Assembly: GCA_022072255.1 (NCBI GenBank)
Contig: JAJVHZ010000030.1
Coordinates: 23,048 to 79,494 of the forward strand
Direction of reading: 5' to 3'
DNA: 56,447 nucleotides
DNA from: Gammaproteobacteria bacterium
GTDB taxonomy: Bacteria > Pseudomonadota > Gammaproteobacteria > JAJPIJ01
Shown: piece by piece, positions 21,000-50,681 of the stretch
Layout: each line of letters begins with the position of its first letter
How positions within the stretch are numbered: position 1 is the first letter of the stretch
Position numbers and translations under genes: made by a program
Notes under the pieces: generated by a model
What the model saw: the letters and a program-made list of their open reading frames with translations, nothing else
Told to the model about the DNA's origin: nothing
Database searches by the model: none

Positions 21000-23900
21000 A
21001 TGACCACTTCGACGGGTGCTCACCGCGGACTGCTTGGCTGGGTACACGGGGAGATCGACCGGGGACTGAACGTGGTCGCCGGACAGTTGACGGCAGTGCC
21101 GGAGCCCGCGAAGGCCGCGCCGCTTGCCGAGGAGCTGCACCGCATCGCCGGCGCGCTCGGCATGGCGGAGTTGCACGGCGCGGTACGCTACTGCGAATCG
21201 CTGGAGGCACTGGCGGCGTCATTGAAGAGCGATCGGCACGCCGAGGCGAAGAGGCAGGATGCGGTCAACGCCTTGCGCGTGGGCATTCCCGCGCTCGGCG
21301 CGTACCTGAAGGATCTCGTCGCCGGGAGCCCGGATCGGCCTTTGCGGCTGCTGCCCGCCTACACCGCGCTGCGGCGCGCGCTCGGTGAAGACCAGGTGGC
21401 GGCCGCCGATCTGTTCTACCCGGACGTACGCCCGCCACGGCCGGCGCACAGCCTGCCGCCGGCGGCGGACGCGCGCATGGACCCCGCGGAGGTCGCGCGC
21501 GCGGCGCGCGGCCACTACCAGCGCGCCTTGCTGCAATGGCTGCGCGGTGACGCACGCGGACTTCAGCAGATGAAGGTCGCCATGGAACCGATGGATCGGC
21601 TCCATGGCACGGTCACGCCGCTGTTCTGGGCCTGCACCGGACTCATCGAAGGCATCATCGACGGCGGCATTGCAGCCGACGCGCAGGTCAAGCGCCTGTG
21701 CGCGCGCATCGACATACAGCTCTCGCGCATGGCGGAAGGCTCCGCCAGCGTCGCCGACGCGCTGCTGCGCGAGGTGCTCTACCACCTCGCCCGCTGCACC
21801 AGCGAAAGCGCCACGATCGCCGCGGTTCGCGACCACTATTCACTGCAGGCCCATCTGCAGGAATCGCAGCCGGGCAGCGTACCGCCGGCCGCCACGGCGA
21901 CCGTCGAGCAGCTGAAGGCCGCCTGGGAGGCCGGGGTGGCCACCGGCAGACCGGATTGCGCGGCGATCGCCGAGCTCGTGGAACGTCTCGCCGCCACGCT
22001 GGCCGCCGGCGCCGAGCCGGCCGTGCAGGCGTTGCGCGAGGTGGTGATTGCATTGGAGGCCGCGCCCTGCGCCGCGCTGCCGGAGCCCGTCGGTCTCACC
22101 GTAGCCAAGCTGATACTGGTCGTCGAGGAACTCGCCGGATCGACCGGCGCGCAGCGTGCCGAGTTCGCCGCACGCCTGCAGTGGGCGATCGCCAACGTCA
22201 AGGCCGCGCTCGCCGGCGGCGGCGGCGGCGAGTACGCCGCACAGCCGGAAACGCCCGACACCACCCTCAGCCGCGAAACACTGGCGCTGGTATGCGAGGA
22301 GGTGATCGGCGGACTGAAGCGCGCCGAGCACGCGCTGACGAACTACATCGGCCAGGGCGCCCAGGTCGCGGAGGCGCGAGCGGCGATTGCGACACTCGGA
22401 CAGATCTGCGGCGCCCTGCAGGTCGCGCAGCTCGAGGACGCGGCCAACGTCACACGACGCTGCCGCGAGCTGATCGGTACCTGGGTGGAAAGCGGCGGCG
22501 AGCGTGTCGGCGGCGATCTGGAGACCGTCGCCGACACGCTCGCGGCGTTGGAACTGTACATGCACGCCATGAAGGGCCGGCAGCCCAACGCGGGCGGGGT
22601 GCTGGATCCCGTGCTCCCGCGTCTGGGCCTCGAACGCGCGCATCCGCCGCAGGTGGAGGCCCCGGTCGCACCCGCCGGGCCGACCACCGCGCTCGCCGGG
22701 ATCATCACCGCCATCGGCCATGAGGGCGAACCCGCCGCCGCCGACTCCATGCAGATCGACACCGGCGAAGACCCGGAGATCCTCGAGGTGTTCCTCGATG
22801 AGGCCGCCGGCGTGCTGCGGACCATCGCCTCCACGCTCGAGGCGCTGCGCGAGAATCCCGCGGATCGCGAGGCATTCACCACGGTACGCCGCTCCTTCCA
22901 CACCCTGAAGGGCAGCGGCCGCGTGGCCGGGCTGTGCCGCATGGGTGACGTCGCCTGGAGCTTCGAGGAGCTGCTGAACGGCTGGCTGAGCGAGAACCGA
23001 CCCGTGAGCGCGGCACTGATCGAGCTGCTTGCCGCGGGCGGTCAGCGATTCGAGGGCTGGATCGGCGCACTGAAGACCACCGGCTCCGCGACGGTGGCGG
23101 CCGCGGACCTGCTGAGCACGGTCGAACGGATACGCACGGGCGGGCCCGTCAGCATCGCGCAGACCGCCGATACGGCGACGACCGCGCCGGATCCGGCGCC
23201 ACCGGCATCGACCCGGGAGCCGCAGCCCCAGCCGCAACCGGTGCGCGAGACCGTCACGCTGGGCGACGCGCTGACCGTCTCGAAGACGTTGTTCGAGATC
23301 TTCCTGCAGGAGGCCGTGGTGCACCTGCGCACGCTGCGCGAAGAACTGGCCGAATGCGGAGGGGAGAAGGCCATCCCGCACGAATTCGTGCGCGCCGCGC
23401 ACACGCTGGCGGGTATCGCCCGTACGGTCGGCGTCGCCTCGCTCGCCGGACTCAGCCACGCACTCGAGAAGCTGCTGCAGATGCGTCACGAGTCGGCGCA
23501 GCCGATGAGCGGCGCCGATCGGCAACTCGCCGAATCGGCACTCGACAGACTGGAGGCCATGGTCGAGGCGGTGCGTGGACGGCAATTGCCGCCCCTGGCG
23601 GCCGAGCTCATGCAACAGCTGGAGACCGTGCGCGAACTGCAGGCTTCGGGCGGGGAGTCCGCATCTCCGACCGGTGCGGCGCTGTCGAACCACGAGGCTG
23701 CCGCGCCACCGACCGTCGATGCCGCGGACGCGGAGCCCGCAGCGCCCGCGGCCGCCGTGGAGCAGGACGAGGCGCTGCTCGCGCCGAAGGAACCGGCTGC
23801 GCGGCCGCCCGCCGCGAGCGCGCCAGGGGCTGCGGCCCCCGCGTCGACGGACAAGGCCGCGATCTCGGCGGTGGACATCTCCGCCATCGACGCCGATCTG

Positions 23901-26123
23901 CGCGGGACGTTCGCCGAGGAAGGGCTGGAGCTCGCCACCGCACTCGCCCGCAGCATGCAGGCGTGGCGCAACGCGCCTGGGAATGCGGCGCACGCCGAGG
24001 AGATCGCGCGCCATCTGCATACGCTGAAAGGCAGCGCCCGCAGCGCCGGCGCCATGCCGATAGGCGAGATCGTGCACGCCACGGAGTCGCGCGTGCTCCA
24101 CGCGATGCACACGAGAGAGGCCTCGCCCGCCTTCCTCGACTGCCTGCAGGCGACCTTCGATCAGTGGTGCGAGGCCTTCGAGAACGCCCGCCATGTGACG
24201 CAGCCGTCGGTCTCCACCGCGGTCGTCAACGCGGTGTCGATCGCCGCGCAGGCCGAGGAACTGCCCACCGAGGAACTGAAGGCGGACGGCGCGCGAACCG
24301 GTTCCGCCGCACAGTTGCGCGTGCAGGTCGAGATGCTGGAGCGCCTGCTCGACGGCTCGGCGGAGATCGCGCTCACGCGGGCGCGCATCGACTCCGAGCT
24401 CTCCGCAGCGCGTCGCGCCGCCACCGACATGGAAGAGCGCGTGACGCACCTGCGCGCCCAGCTGCGCGAGATCGAGATCCAGGCCGAGAGCCAGATGCGC
24501 GCGCGCTTCGACGGCCTCGATCAGTCCGACGCCGCGTTCGACCCCCTCGAGTTCGATCGCTACACGCGGCTGCAGGAGCTAACCCGGTTCATGGCCGAGT
24601 CGCTGCACGACCTGACCACGGTGCAATACAACCTCAGCCGCCACTTCGACGAGACCGAGGGTGTGCTCGGCCAGCAGGCCCGTCTGCAACGCAACCTGCA
24701 CTCCGATTTGATGCACATACGCACCGTGCCGTTCGGAAGCGCCGCCGAGCGCCTGCAACGCATCGCGCGCCAGACGGCCTTCGAGCTCGGGCGCAGCGTC
24801 CGCCTGAGCATCAGCGGCGGCCACGTCGAACTCGATCGCACGGTCCTCGACCGGCTGATCTCGCCGCTCGAGCACATGGTGCGCAACGCGGTCGCCCACG
24901 GGATCGAGGATGCAGGGGAGCGGCGGCGCGGCGGCAAGCCGGAGACCGGCAGCATCACGATCGCGGTGCACCAGGAGGCCAACCAGGTCATGATCGTCTG
25001 CAGCGACGACGGCGCCGGCCTCGACCTGGGGCGCATCCGCGCCAAGGCCGAGGCGGGCGGCTTCATCGCCGCCAGCGAGCAGGCGAGCGACGACGCCCTG
25101 CGCCAGCTCATATTCCGCCCCGGCTTCAGCACCGCCGAACAACTGACCGAAGTCGCCGGCCGCGGCGTGGGCATGGACGTGGCGAAGAGCACCGTTGTCG
25201 CTCTGGGCGGCGACATCAGCGTCGAATCCCGGCCCGGCTTCGGCACCACCTTCACGCTCAGCGTTCCGCTGACGCTGGTGGTGGTGCAGGCGATCATGAT
25301 CCGCAACGCCGATCGGATCTACGGCATCCCTTCGAACCTCGTTGTGCAGATCCACCGCTGCGACGCCGCAGAGCTCGAGGCCATGTACGAGCACCGGCAC
25401 GCCGACTGGGCCGGCGAGCGCCATGCCTTCCGCTACATGGGCGATCTGCTGGGCACCGCACCGCGAGGGGCCGTGCAGCGGCGCAACAACATCGTCATCT
25501 TCCTGCGCGCCGCCAACGAGCGGGTGGCCGTGCACGTCGACGACATCCTGCTGAACCAGGAACTCGCGCTGAAGGAGATGGGTCCGCAGCTCGCCGGCGC
25601 GCTCGGGGTCGCCGGCGCTTCCATCGGCGAGAACGGCCGCGCGCTGCTCATCATCAATCCGCTGCAGATTGCGGTGCGGCACGCCACCGCCAGGGTCCGG
25701 GCGCAGATCGTCGACAGCAGGCCGGCGCACGCGCCGCTGGTTCTGGTGGTGGACGACTCGGTGACAGTGCGCAAGGTCACCAGCCGGCTGCTCGAACGCT
25801 CAGGCTACCGCGTGGCGACCGCGAAGGACGGCGTCGACGCGCTGGAGCGCATGCGCGAGGAGCCGCCGGCCGTGGTGCTACTGGACATCGAGATGCCGCG
25901 CATGGACGGCTTCGAGCTGACCAGGCACCTGCGCGCGCAAGCGCAGACCGAGAAGCTGCCGATCATCATGATCAGCTCGCGCACGGCGGAGAAGCACCGC
26001 ATGCACGCGCGCGATCTGGGGGTGACGATGTTCCTCGGCAAACCCTTCAACGACGCCCTGCTGTTGCGCCAGATCGAGCGCCTGACGAGAGGCGACCACC
26101 CGCCGGCGCGCAGCGTCGCCTAG
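21000..26123 (+). CDS. chpA: Hybrid chemotaxis histidine kinase ChpA
   Basis: 1707 aa, shorter than Pseudomonas ChpA (~2470). HPt-like units are recognised at H47, H262, Q468 (Gln replaces His), H634 (FHTLKGSGR), H801 (AHTLAGIAR) and H1007 (LHTLKGSARSAG). Then come a dimerisation and HATPase region with HMVRNAVAHGIED (~1291) and DDGAGLDLGRIR (~1337), a CheW-like domain (~1420-1560), and a C-terminal receiver (~1580-1700) with LVVDDSVTVRK and LLDIEMPRMDGF. Ala/Pro-rich linkers separate the units. It is the kinase of the pilus chemotaxis system and starts 12 nt after pilJ. H634 and H1007 look most canonical. Confidence 0.95.
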   Translation: MTTSTGAHRGLLGWVHGEIDRGLNVVAGQLTAVPEPAKAAPLAEELHRIAGALGMAELHGAVRYCESLEALAASLKSDRHAEAKRQDAVNALRVGIPALGAYLKDLVAGSPDRPLRLLPAYTALRRALGEDQVAAADLFYPDVRPPRPAHSLPPAADARMDPAEVARAARGHYQRALLQWLRGDARGLQQMKVAMEPMDRLHGTVTPLFWACTGLIEGIIDGGIAADAQVKRLCARIDIQLSRMAEGSASVADALLREVLYHLARCTSESATIAAVRDHYSLQAHLQESQPGSVPPAATATVEQLKAAWEAGVATGRPDCAAIAELVERLAATLAAGAEPAVQALREVVIALEAAPCAALPEPVGLTVAKLILVVEELAGSTGAQRAEFAARLQWAIANVKAALAGGGGGEYAAQPETPDTTLSRETLALVCEEVIGGLKRAEHALTNYIGQGAQVAEARAAIATLGQICGALQVAQLEDAANVTRRCRELIGTWVESGGERVGGDLETVADTLAALELYMHAMKGRQPNAGGVLDPVLPRLGLERAHPPQVEAPVAPAGPTTALAGIITAIGHEGEPAAADSMQIDTGEDPEILEVFLDEAAGVLRTIASTLEALRENPADREAFTTVRRSFHTLKGSGRVAGLCRMGDVAWSFEELLNGWLSENRPVSAALIELLAAGGQRFEGWIGALKTTGSATVAAADLLSTVERIRTGGPVSIAQTADTATTAPDPAPPASTREPQPQPQPVRETVTLGDALTVSKTLFEIFLQEAVVHLRTLREELAECGGEKAIPHEFVRAAHTLAGIARTVGVASLAGLSHALEKLLQMRHESAQPMSGADRQLAESALDRLEAMVEAVRGRQLPPLAAELMQQLETVRELQASGGESASPTGAALSNHEAAAPPTVDAADAEPAAPAAAVEQDEALLAPKEPAARPPAASAPGAAAPASTDKAAISAVDISAIDADLRGTFAEEGLELATALARSMQAWRNAPGNAAHAEEIARHLHTLKGSARSAGAMPIGEIVHATESRVLHAMHTREASPAFLDCLQATFDQWCEAFENARHVTQPSVSTAVVNAVSIAAQAEELPTEELKADGARTGSAAQLRVQVEMLERLLDGSAEIALTRARIDSELSAARRAATDMEERVTHLRAQLREIEIQAESQMRARFDGLDQSDAAFDPLEFDRYTRLQELTRFMAESLHDLTTVQYNLSRHFDETEGVLGQQARLQRNLHSDLMHIRTVPFGSAAERLQRIARQTAFELGRSVRLSISGGHVELDRTVLDRLISPLEHMVRNAVAHGIEDAGERRRGGKPETGSITIAVHQEANQVMIVCSDDGAGLDLGRIRAKAEAGGFIAASEQASDDALRQLIFRPGFSTAEQLTEVAGRGVGMDVAKSTVVALGGDISVESRPGFGTTFTLSVPLTLVVVQAIMIRNADRIYGIPSNLVVQIHRCDAAELEAMYEHRHADWAGERHAFRYMGDLLGTAPRGAVQRRNNIVIFLRAANERVAVHVDDILLNQELALKEMGPQLAGALGVAGASIGENGRALLIINPLQIAVRHATARVRAQIVDSRPAHAPLVLVVDDSVTVRKVTSRLLERSGYRVATAKDGVDALERMREEPPAVVLLDIEMPRMDGFELTRHLRAQAQTEKLPIIMISSRTAEKHRMHARDLGVTMFLGKPFNDALLLRQIERLTRGDHPPARSVA

Positions 26124-28512: not shown

Positions 28513-29915
28513 ATGCCGGGGGAGGCAGTCAAGACTCGTTTTGCACCCAGCCCCACGGGCGCGATGCATCTCGGCAATGCGCGCACGGCGCTGTTCTCGT
28601 GGCTGCTCGCGCGCCGCCACGGCGGCCGCTTCCTGCTGCGCATCGAGGACACCGATCGCGAGCGCCACCAGCACGGGGCCGAAGAGGCCTTCATCGAGGA
28701 CCTGCGTTGGCTGGGTCTGAACTGGGACGAGGGCCCGGACATGGAAGGTCTCGCCGGCCCCTACCGGCAGTCCGAGCGCAGTCATATCTATGTGGCCCTC
28801 TACGGCCGTCTGGCGGAGGCCGGGCTCACCTATCCCTGCTTCTGCTCGGCGGAGACACTGGCGGTGCAGCGCAAGACCCAGCTCGCCGCGGGCAAGCCGC
28901 CGCGCTACGCCGGAACCTGCGCCAGCCTGAGCGAGGCGCAGGTCAGCGGGAAGCTCACGCAGGGACTCACGCCCACGATGCGCTTCCACGTGCCGCCCGG
29001 CAGGCAGATCCTCTTCGACGACATCGTGCACGGCCCGCAGCGCTACAACTCCGATGACATCGGCGACTTCATCATCCGCCGCGCCGACGGCACGGCCTCG
29101 TTCTTCTTCTCCAACGCCGTGGACGACGCGCTGATGGCCGTGACACACGTCCTGCGCGGTGAGGACCACCTCACCAACACGCCGCGGCAACTGCTGCTGC
29201 TGGAATCGCTCGGATACCCGCCGCCGCAGTACGGCCACGTGAGCCTCGTCGTCGGCAGTGACGGCGCGCCGTTGTCCAAACGCCACGGCAGCGCCTCGGT
29301 GGAAGACCTGCGCGCGCGCGGCGTGCTGCCCGGCGCCGTGGTCAACATGCTGGCGCGCCTCGGCCATTACTACGAGTCTGGCCACTACATGCCGCTGGAG
29401 GCGCTGGCGCAGTCGTTCGAGACCAGGCACCTCGGCACGGCCCCGGCCCATTTCGACGAGCACCAGCTCCGGCACTGGCAGCGCGAGGCGGTGCTGAACG
29501 CCGACGAGAACCTGCTGGTGAACTGGCTGCGGGACCTGCTGCCGTCGCAGCTCGACGACAGGGCGCGCCGGGAGTTCGTCCACGCCCTGCGCGGCAACCT
29601 GCTCTACCCCGCCGATGCGGACACCTGGGCGCGGATCGTCTATACAGACGATATGCCGGTCACCGAGGAGGCCTTGGCAGCACTGCGGGGTGCTGACAAG
29701 GGCCTTTTTGTGTCTGCCGTCACCGCCGCCGGGGAGGCCGGGACCGACTACGCCGCATTTGTCGCACGGCTGAAGACACTCATCCCGGCCAGGGGCAGGG
29801 CGCTGTTCCAGCCGCTCCGTGCCGCCCTGACCGGGCGGCTGGATGGACCGGAGCTTGCTTCCCTCTTCGCGCTGCTGGGAGCCGATCGAATAACGCGTCG
29901 TCTGGAGAAACCACC

Positions 29916-29922
<7 letters not shown>
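28513..29922 (+). CDS. gltX: Glutamyl-tRNA synthetase
   Basis: 469 aa, normal for bacterial GluRS. Class I motifs: [20 protein letters not shown] (HIGH equivalent MHLGN) and the KMSKS equivalent LSKRHG at ~253. The zinc-like cluster CFC...YAGTC (residues ~109-135) is present. The C-terminal anticodon-binding region (~330-469) is complete. It loads glutamate on tRNA(Glu); whether it also charges tRNA(Gln) cannot be told here. Its end overlaps cysS by 7 nt, so the two synthetases are co-transcribed. Confidence 0.95.
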
Positions 29923-31494: not shown

Positions 31495-31571
<77 letters not shown>

Positions 31572-31602
31572 AATATAATGGGTTACAGTTCGGCCGGTAT
31601 CC

Positions 31603-31678
31603 GCGCCTGTAGCTCAGGGGATAGAGCATCGGCCTTCTAAGCCGGTGGTCGCAGGTTCGAATCCTGCCAGGCGCGCCA
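31603..31678 (+). tRNA. tRNA-Arg (anticodon TCT)
   Basis: 76 nt with encoded CCA. Acceptor GCGCCTG/CAGGCGC, discriminator G, D arm GCTC...GAGC, anticodon loop CTTCTAA in stem TCGGC/GCCGG, T arm GCAGG TTCGAAT CCTGC. Confidence 0.96.
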
Positions 31679-31712
31679 GATTGTGCGGCAAGCGCCATTG
31701 CAAGGTTCAATG

Positions 31713-31788
31713 GTGGGCGTAGCTCAGTTGGTAGAGCCCCGGATTGTGATTCCGGTTGTCGTGGGTTCGAGTCCCATCGTCCACCCCA
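31713..31788 (+). tRNA. tRNA-His (anticodon GTG)
   Basis: 76 nt with encoded CCA. Acceptor GTGGGCG/CGTCCAC, discriminator C. The base before the acceptor (31712) is G and can pair with the discriminator as the encoded G-1 specific to tRNA-His. Anticodon loop TTGTGAT gives GTG. Confidence 0.96.
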
Positions 31789-31829
31789 TTCGACAACATA
31801 TATAGTGAAGGCAGTAGACCCGCAGCACC

Positions 31830-31905
31830 GGGGCGTTAGCTCAGTTGGTAGAGCAGCTGACTCTTAATCAGTAGGTCCAAGGTTCGAATCCTTGACGCCC
31901 CACCA
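31830..31905 (+). tRNA. tRNA-Lys (anticodon CTT)
   Basis: 76 nt with encoded CCA. Acceptor GGGGCGT/ACGCCCC, discriminator A; anticodon loop CTCTTAA in stem GCTGA/TCAGT gives CTT; T arm CAAGG TTCGAAT CCTTG. Last tRNA of the cluster; the sequence beyond it does not hold the usual neighbours. Confidence 0.96.
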
Positions 31906-49872: not shown

Positions 49873-50450
49873 ACTTCCACGGGGGTCAGGCCTCAGGTCC
49901 TGAACGTGCCCGCGATTGTGGACGATCCAGTTGCGGGCCCCGGACCCGCGGTGTCTGGTGCCGGGAAAACCGCTCGACCCCCAGGCCTGTTCCGAAGCGT
50001 TTGGAGTGCCCGATGAGCAGTGGGGGCCGCGCGGTAGGAAGATTATCGGCAATCGCGTGCGTGGCTGAAGGGCCTGCGCACACCGGCCGTCGAAAAGTTG
50101 AACGACGCCGCTATTGCGCCGCGGCCCCGGGGCGTAATGCCTGCGGCACTCCGTCGGCCGCGCGATGGCAGGCGGCGACGCCAGGGCTCGCCGCCAGTGG
50201 GATGCTGCAAGGCAATACTGCCAGACGGACGACGAGGTTCGCGTCCGCGTTTCGCGCACCGCACTGCAGCGCAGGACGCGCGTGTTCACATGCCTGCGCC
50301 GCCGTCCGGTACGCGAAAAAAATGTGTGTGCGGCGATTCACGAACCCCGGATGCCAGGGATGCGATGCGGCGCGGAGGTTCGCTACAGTGCGATGAAAAC
50401 AAGACGTACCCTCAACGAGCGCAGGGAACCCGTCGTGAGAGGAGAACGTC
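49873..50450. other. 578-bp gap before the CsrA-like gene
   Basis: Longest gene-free stretch in the right half. Several overlapping frames occur on both strands but none has recognised features. The DNA immediately ahead of the CsrA-like gene (50393-50450) includes AGAGGAGAA, which serves as its ribosome site and contains GGA, the core CsrA/Rsm recognition triplet, so autoregulation is possible. No promoter is certain. Confidence 0.4.
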
Positions 50451-50681
50451 ATGCTATTTTTCAACCGCGGCCCGAGTCAGTCGATCTATCTCTCACTCGC
50501 TGAAGACATCGACCCCGCCACCCCCGTCGGCGAATTGTTCAAGGAAGGCCCCATCCGCATCCGTATCATGAACGTCAACGGCACGCAGGTCCGCCTCGGC
50601 GTGCGCTCGCCGCTGCACCTGGACGTGTACCGCGAGGACGGCCTGGAGAGCATCCCGCACGCATCCGCATCCACCGGCTGA
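50451..50681 (+). CDS. CsrA-family RNA-binding protein, RsmN/RsmF-like with inserted segment
   Basis: 76 aa. Aligned by eye to CsrA: MLFFNRGP at the start with Arg6 kept, then IYLSLAEDI and an ~15-residue insertion before GPIRIRIMNVNGTQVRLGVR, SPLHLDVYRED with Arg61 in the place of CsrA Arg44 / RsmN Arg62. Pseudomonas RsmN/RsmF has the same extra segment between its strands (ITLSL...LREGGIRI). It binds GGA-containing mRNA leaders and controls translation. The usual RR at positions 6-7 is RG. Ribosome site AGAGGAGAA. Monocistronic, and no canonical csrA in the window. Confidence 0.78.
   Translation: MLFFNRGPSQSIYLSLAEDIDPATPVGELFKEGPIRIRIMNVNGTQVRLGVRSPLHLDVYREDGLESIPHASASTG

Follow-up and report, generated by a model that had tools for sequence, protein, structure and literature searches.

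An RsmN/RsmF-type CsrA paralog in an uncultured gammaproteobacterium outside Pseudomonas

Introduction

RsmN of Pseudomonas aeruginosa carries a 16-residue insert that forms a helix between strands beta2 and beta3, and the strand-swapped dimer of the CsrA family is replaced in it by two docked monomers (PMC3791407). The protein binds ANGGA RNAs, and the R62A exchange lowers its affinity more than 1000-fold; in the glycogen test with the laboratory E. coli csrA mutant TR1-5 it fails (PMC3791407). The other Pseudomonas Rsm paralogs keep the standard fold (PMC7366521). In the literature searched, which covered few subscription papers, RsmN/RsmF is described only from Pseudomonas (PMC3791407, PMC7366521).

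Here we describe a gene of this type from an uncultured gammaproteobacterium with a genome of 4.27 Mb in 128 contigs (95% complete). The window, i.e. the whole stretch of DNA analysed, comprises 56,447 nucleotides; coordinates refer to it unless another contig or locus is named. The evidence supports the original prediction in its main interpretation: the product of positions 50451-50681 is an RsmN/RsmF-type CsrA paralog from a host other than Pseudomonas.

Gene and protein features

The rsmN-like gene (50451..50681, plus strand) starts with ATG in the context GAGAGGAG-AACGTC-ATG and encodes a CsrA-family protein of 76 amino acids (MLFFNRGPSQSIYLSLAEDIDPATPVGELFKEGPIRIRIMNVNGTQVRLGVRSPLHLDVYREDGLESIPHASASTG) that has a predicted extra helix between beta2 and beta3. 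The match to the Pfam CsrA family (PF02599) is significant (E 2.6e-7, 30.9 bits against a curated cut-off of 27) and covers the second half of the protein only. The NCBIfam csrA equivalogs TIGR00202 and NF002469 are not reached (31.3 versus 73 bits and 25.5 versus 70.1 bits, respectively). An ortholog with 91% protein identity and an intact frame is present in a congener, the metagenome-assembled genome Gammaproteobacteria bacterium Bin_9R, which is the nearest named relative and the only genome reached by a profile search of named genomes. Because of the Pfam score, this ortholog and the profile match to RsmF/RsmN through the insert (see below), the reading frame is not a chance one.

Aligned to canonical CsrA, the protein shows an insert of 17 columns, residues 18-34, between strands 2 and 3 (codons 18-34, 50502..50552, plus strand; EDIDPATPVGELFKEGP). 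It interrupts the beta2-beta3 hairpin of the canonical protein, and is supported by alignments, the helical hydrophobic moment and the model helix. The original prediction had correctly placed extra residues after IYLSLAEDI, but its estimate of about 15 was too low. The other residues that it had named, Arg6, GTQVRLGV, Arg61 and a Gly (Gly7) at the position of CsrA Arg7, are all present.

In a phmmer search against solved structures, P. aeruginosa RsmF (4k59) and RsmN (4kji) came out on top, aligned over residues 2-67 with the insert included. Canonical CsrA entries ranked lower and were aligned only from residue 26-34 onward. A profile search likewise placed 4k59 and 4kji first, aligned through the insert; over both searches, canonical CsrA was aligned mainly from residue 26-35 onward. 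Identity to RsmN/RsmF is about 30%, and the insert is one residue longer than theirs. With canonical CsrA, RsmA and RsmE the protein shares the Pfam family, the G-x-QVR-x-G core and counterparts of Arg6 and Arg44; it differs from them in the insert, in the predicted lack of a C-terminal helix and in scores far below the csrA equivalog cut-offs.

Predicted fold

The structure was predicted with AlphaFold as a single chain, from an alignment of four rows: the window protein, its ortholog, the ortholog of the second paralog and the neighbouring canonical CsrA. A three-row job had given a poor model (pLDDT 54), and addition of the canonical CsrA row made it usable. The monomer model reaches a pLDDT of 69.7 overall and 77-84 in residues 11-60. 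It contains strands at 2-6, 11-16, 36-43, 46-52 and 57-62 and a helix at 26-29; a helix around residues 25-32 of the insert is also predicted from helical amphipathicity (hydrophobic moment). The element order, beta1-beta2-alpha-beta3-beta4-beta5, is that of RsmN. No helix follows beta5, unlike in CsrA, and residues 65-76 are of low confidence.

Foldseek returned a probability of 1.00 for 4kji, 4k59 and 4krw only. In VIA-align these three chains gave Z scores of 8.2, 7.9 and 7.6, respectively, and the next chain 3.2, values to be read with the caveat that AlphaFold may recall 4kji. Canonical CsrA chains were absent from the fold matches, although an absent row does not show that folds differ. 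The predicted fold has the five-strand CsrA/RsmN topology and, among solved structures, matches RsmN/RsmF only, as was expected in the original prediction from the sequence. An RsmN-like monomer topology is accordingly what the model predicts for the protein.

RNA-contact and core residues

The codon of Arg6 (50466..50468, plus strand) corresponds to RsmN Arg8 and CsrA Arg6. That of Arg61 (50631..50633, plus strand) corresponds to RsmN Arg62 and RsmA Arg44, which are essential there for RNA binding. The RNA-contact residues Arg49 and Gln47 of RsmN are kept as Arg48 and Gln46, and the positions of its salt-bridge pair Arg8-Glu64 hold Arg6 and the acidic Asp63. Two of the four basic RNA-contact residues of RsmN are lost (Arg9 to Gly7, Arg56 to Leu55), so that the RNA affinity of the protein could be low.

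The hydrophobic beta1 residues Leu2 and Phe4 are kept. The core positions Leu18, Leu27, Leu31, Ile36, Pro55 and Val58 of RsmN are occupied by Leu16, Val26, Phe30, Ile35, Pro54 and Leu57, respectively; Val26 and Phe30 stand at the helix-packing positions Leu27 and Leu31, and Ile28 is replaced by Gly27. Where the inserted helix of RsmN ends in a Gly-Ile motif (within Gly-Gly-Ile), the protein has Gly33-Pro34-Ile35, i.e. the Ile is kept and the Gly is shifted by one.

Gene neighbourhood and paralogs

The rsmN-like gene stands alone, with a virginiamycin-B-lyase-like gene on one side and a convergent tRNA-editing (YbaK-type) gene on the other. No signs of mobile elements were found near it. The genome had been described as rich in motility genes, and the window agrees: it contains genes for flagellin-like/FlgL-type, FlgK, FlgI and FlgE proteins, a methyl-accepting chemotaxis protein (MCP) and a large CheA-type kinase. 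These flagellar and chemotaxis genes lie in its first half, 25-50 kb from the rsmN-like gene. The kinase (1707 aa, 21000-26123) is a hybrid in which several Hpt domains are combined with CheW and a receiver domain; it is encoded beside the MCP gene and resembles a pilus chemotaxis kinase. Four consecutive tRNA genes (31495-31902) follow downstream of a glutamyl-tRNA-synthetase-type gene (28513-29922).

The search of the genome for canonical csrA found two intact copies, on contigs 19 and 5, so that the protein coexists with canonical CsrA as RsmN/RsmF does with RsmA in Pseudomonas. As a secondary copy beside a main one it is also comparable to RsmE, RsmI, RsmC, RsmD, RsmH, RsmL and RsmM of Pseudomonas and to CsrR of Legionella. 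On contig 5 the canonical csrA is preceded, at a distance of about 30 bases, by a second RsmN-like gene; this tandem copy is a further difference from RsmN/RsmF. The two genes form an apparent two-gene operon (L022:5487-5895) that is kept in the congener (L061:3866-4313), which has orthologs of both RsmN-like genes. The second RsmN-like gene scores 21.6 bits against the Pfam CsrA cut-off of 27, so annotation could miss it.

A csrA split by a frameshift (contig 21, 29640-29793; L027) and a C-terminal csrA fragment (contig 31, 37897-37974; L026) were also found. Since further intact csrA genes are present on contigs 11 and 13 of the congener, the two are either copies in decay or errors of the assembly. 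The congener further encodes a CsrA protein of 203 aa with two insert-type domains (contig 24, L024:7265-7876) that was not seen in the genome of the window. Its first domain lacks the QVR motif and has Cys as the counterpart of Arg61. An EAL-HDOD gene lies just upstream of this gene and a HIG_1_N gene downstream.

Insert-bearing CsrA proteins in other families

A profile search was performed in 369 sampled genomes of the bacterial class. Counts leave out the RsmN group f160, which is presumed to be Pseudomonadaceae from the likeness of its proteins to RsmN of P. aeruginosa. Full-length insert-bearing CsrA proteins were found in 18 genomes (about 5%) from 13 families, the genus of the window included; a class-wide draw repeated around another genome gave the same genomes. 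Seventeen representatives, again with the own genus, align over 67 columns with no internal gap. Met1, Arg6, Phe30 and Arg61 are invariant in this alignment, the Pro of Gly-Pro-Ile is present in 15 of the 17 rows, and P-x-M-T-V-x-E-L-F-x-x-G-P-I recurs as a signature. A profile of the group, built without Pseudomonas-type sequences, matches Pseudomonas-like RsmN at 1e-10 to 1e-13, and in 398 genomes of a phylum draw it did not list canonical CsrA at 1e-8. Judged from these sequences, the insert-type form is a scattered but coherent group in further families of this class of bacteria. Its occurrence outside Pseudomonas, which the original prediction had raised as a possibility, is borne out.

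Canonical csrA is also present in all of the insert-bearing genomes checked (22/22). One single-contig genome (G312; L066, L067, L068) carries three CsrA genes of the insert type and three canonical ones. In a protein of genome G135, an insert-type CsrA is followed at the C-terminus by a fused helix-turn-helix domain of the Cro/C1 type (L069:2284-2814, minus strand; Pfam CsrA 42 bits, HTH_31 30.6 bits), so that a single chain holds one domain for RNA binding and one for DNA binding. A plasmid or phage origin was considered and rejected, as the window protein has no tblastn match in plasmids or phages. One relative from the group was absent from plasmids and phages and another from plasmids, and two viral-contig scans held no relatives.

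Leader and control of the gene

The leader (50377..50450, plus strand) is the same in the congener at 73 of 74 bases, while other nearby intergenic stretches are mostly about 50-65% identical. The segment 50377-50516, 74 bases of which lie upstream of the start codon, is the most conserved 140 nt of the 13.3 kb shared with the congener (98.6% versus a mean of 81%). Silent sites in the first 33 codons are conserved at 15 of 16 positions against 16 of 23, an excess that is not significant (p 0.11).

A hairpin is predicted at 50402..50453 (plus strand), in which the arm GACGU-CCCUC pairs with the Shine-Dalgarno region GAGGAG-ACGUC. The apex exposes an ANGGA motif (AGGGA, at 50423) with a largely accessible GGA (unpaired 0.38-1.0); in the Shine-Dalgarno GGA, both Gs are paired. 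The z score is modest (-2.1 to -2.4), 5 of 200 shuffled sequences fold equally well, and the comparison covers two genomes, too few for covariation. Just upstream, an inverted repeat CGAACCCC...GGAGGTTCG (50341..50382, plus strand) has arms that are conserved and a loop that varies in the congener; it is a candidate RNA hairpin or operator. Promoter and terminator scans found none. Rfam identified only tRNAs in the window and no known Csr/Rsm RNA. The RsmY and RsmZ family models had no match in the genome. These results are uninformative given how narrow the models are.

Given the conserved leader and a hairpin that can hide the ribosome site, it is plausible that a CsrA/Rsm protein controls translation of the gene. 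The original prediction had read the GGA in the ribosome site of the gene as a sign of self-control. The GGA is indeed there, but as evidence it is weak, being nearly automatic for an AGGAG Shine-Dalgarno sequence. The leader and its hairpin support self-control in part, but the binding protein may be canonical CsrA. In P. aeruginosa RsmA represses the translation of RsmN (PMC6061880), and control by canonical CsrA is therefore at least as likely as self-control.

Proposed function and alternatives

We consider with good confidence that the protein is an RsmN/RsmF-type paralog, most likely acting as a secondary translational regulator beside canonical CsrA, with putative binding of GGA/ANGGA sites. 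By redirecting the chain, the inserted helix would let every monomer complete its own fold; two such monomers would then dock, in place of the strand swapping of CsrA. The GGA-binding edge (beta1, beta5 and Arg61) would be retained. The protein would most likely bind GGA/ANGGA sites in mRNA leaders and block or alter translation, as a secondary regulator in a cell that also has two canonical CsrA proteins. The ribosome-site hairpin, bound by canonical CsrA and/or by the RsmN-like protein itself, probably holds the mRNA of the gene at a low level.

It is unlikely, yet the best of the alternatives, that the RsmN-like fold is no longer an mRNA-binding regulator but a modulator of CsrA, acting for example through mixed dimers or small-RNA competition. 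Such a role would suit the position of the second copy directly upstream of canonical csrA in both genomes, the loss of two basic RNA-contact positions, the constant company of canonical CsrA and, in the congener, the two-domain protein with its one domain devoid of RNA-contact residues. However, the key contacts Arg6 and Arg61 are invariant in 17/17 members of the group, which points to retained RNA binding, and mixed dimers would be hard to form because the dimer interfaces of RsmN and CsrA differ (PMC3791407).

A further alternative is that the protein is a canonical CsrA homolog with a beta2-beta3 loop that has kept the strand-swapped dimer, its likeness to RsmN being a convergent insertion. 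A tree of 68 columns bears on this and is poorly resolved: the best tree sets Pseudomonas-type RsmN nearer canonical CsrA, with a support of 88/77 that is not decisive. The Gly-Pro-Ile in place of the RsmN Gly-Ile would also fit separate insertions. Against this, a single origin, in which the tree separates canonical CsrA from every insert-bearing protein, is not rejected by the AU test (p 0.41). Taken by themselves, the insert segments resemble one another more closely than column shuffles do, 2 of 1000 of which score as high as the real segments, and the model matches RsmN chains with no C-terminal helix predicted. With hhalign, the non-Pseudomonas group aligns to Pseudomonas-type RsmN over 65 columns with one gap, through the insert (5e-20), and to canonical CsrA with a 17-column gap (2e-17). 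We regard a strand-swapped homolog with a convergent insertion as improbable, somewhat more so than the modulator role.

Decay of a non-functional csrA duplicate, which the frameshifted csrA and the csrA fragment on other contigs suggest may happen in this lineage, is hardly credible for this gene in view of its 91% identity to the congener, intact frame, invariant key residues and a leader that is the best conserved in the region.

Returning to the RsmN/RsmF-type reading, there is roughly an even chance that the insert-bearing proteins make up an old branch of their own within the CsrA family, scattered over the bacterial class, with Pseudomonas RsmN as one divergent offshoot. Its members would have diversified by fusion, both of two insert-type domains, one of them without RNA contacts, and of an insert-type CsrA with a Cro/C1-type domain.

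The known example of a CsrA fold that a single inserted helix has rearranged is RsmN/RsmF. The group described here makes it testable whether this form arose once or several times, and why cells with a swapped CsrA retain an unswapped one as well. For the second question, natural experiments are available in the tandem rsmN-csrA operon and the two fusions.
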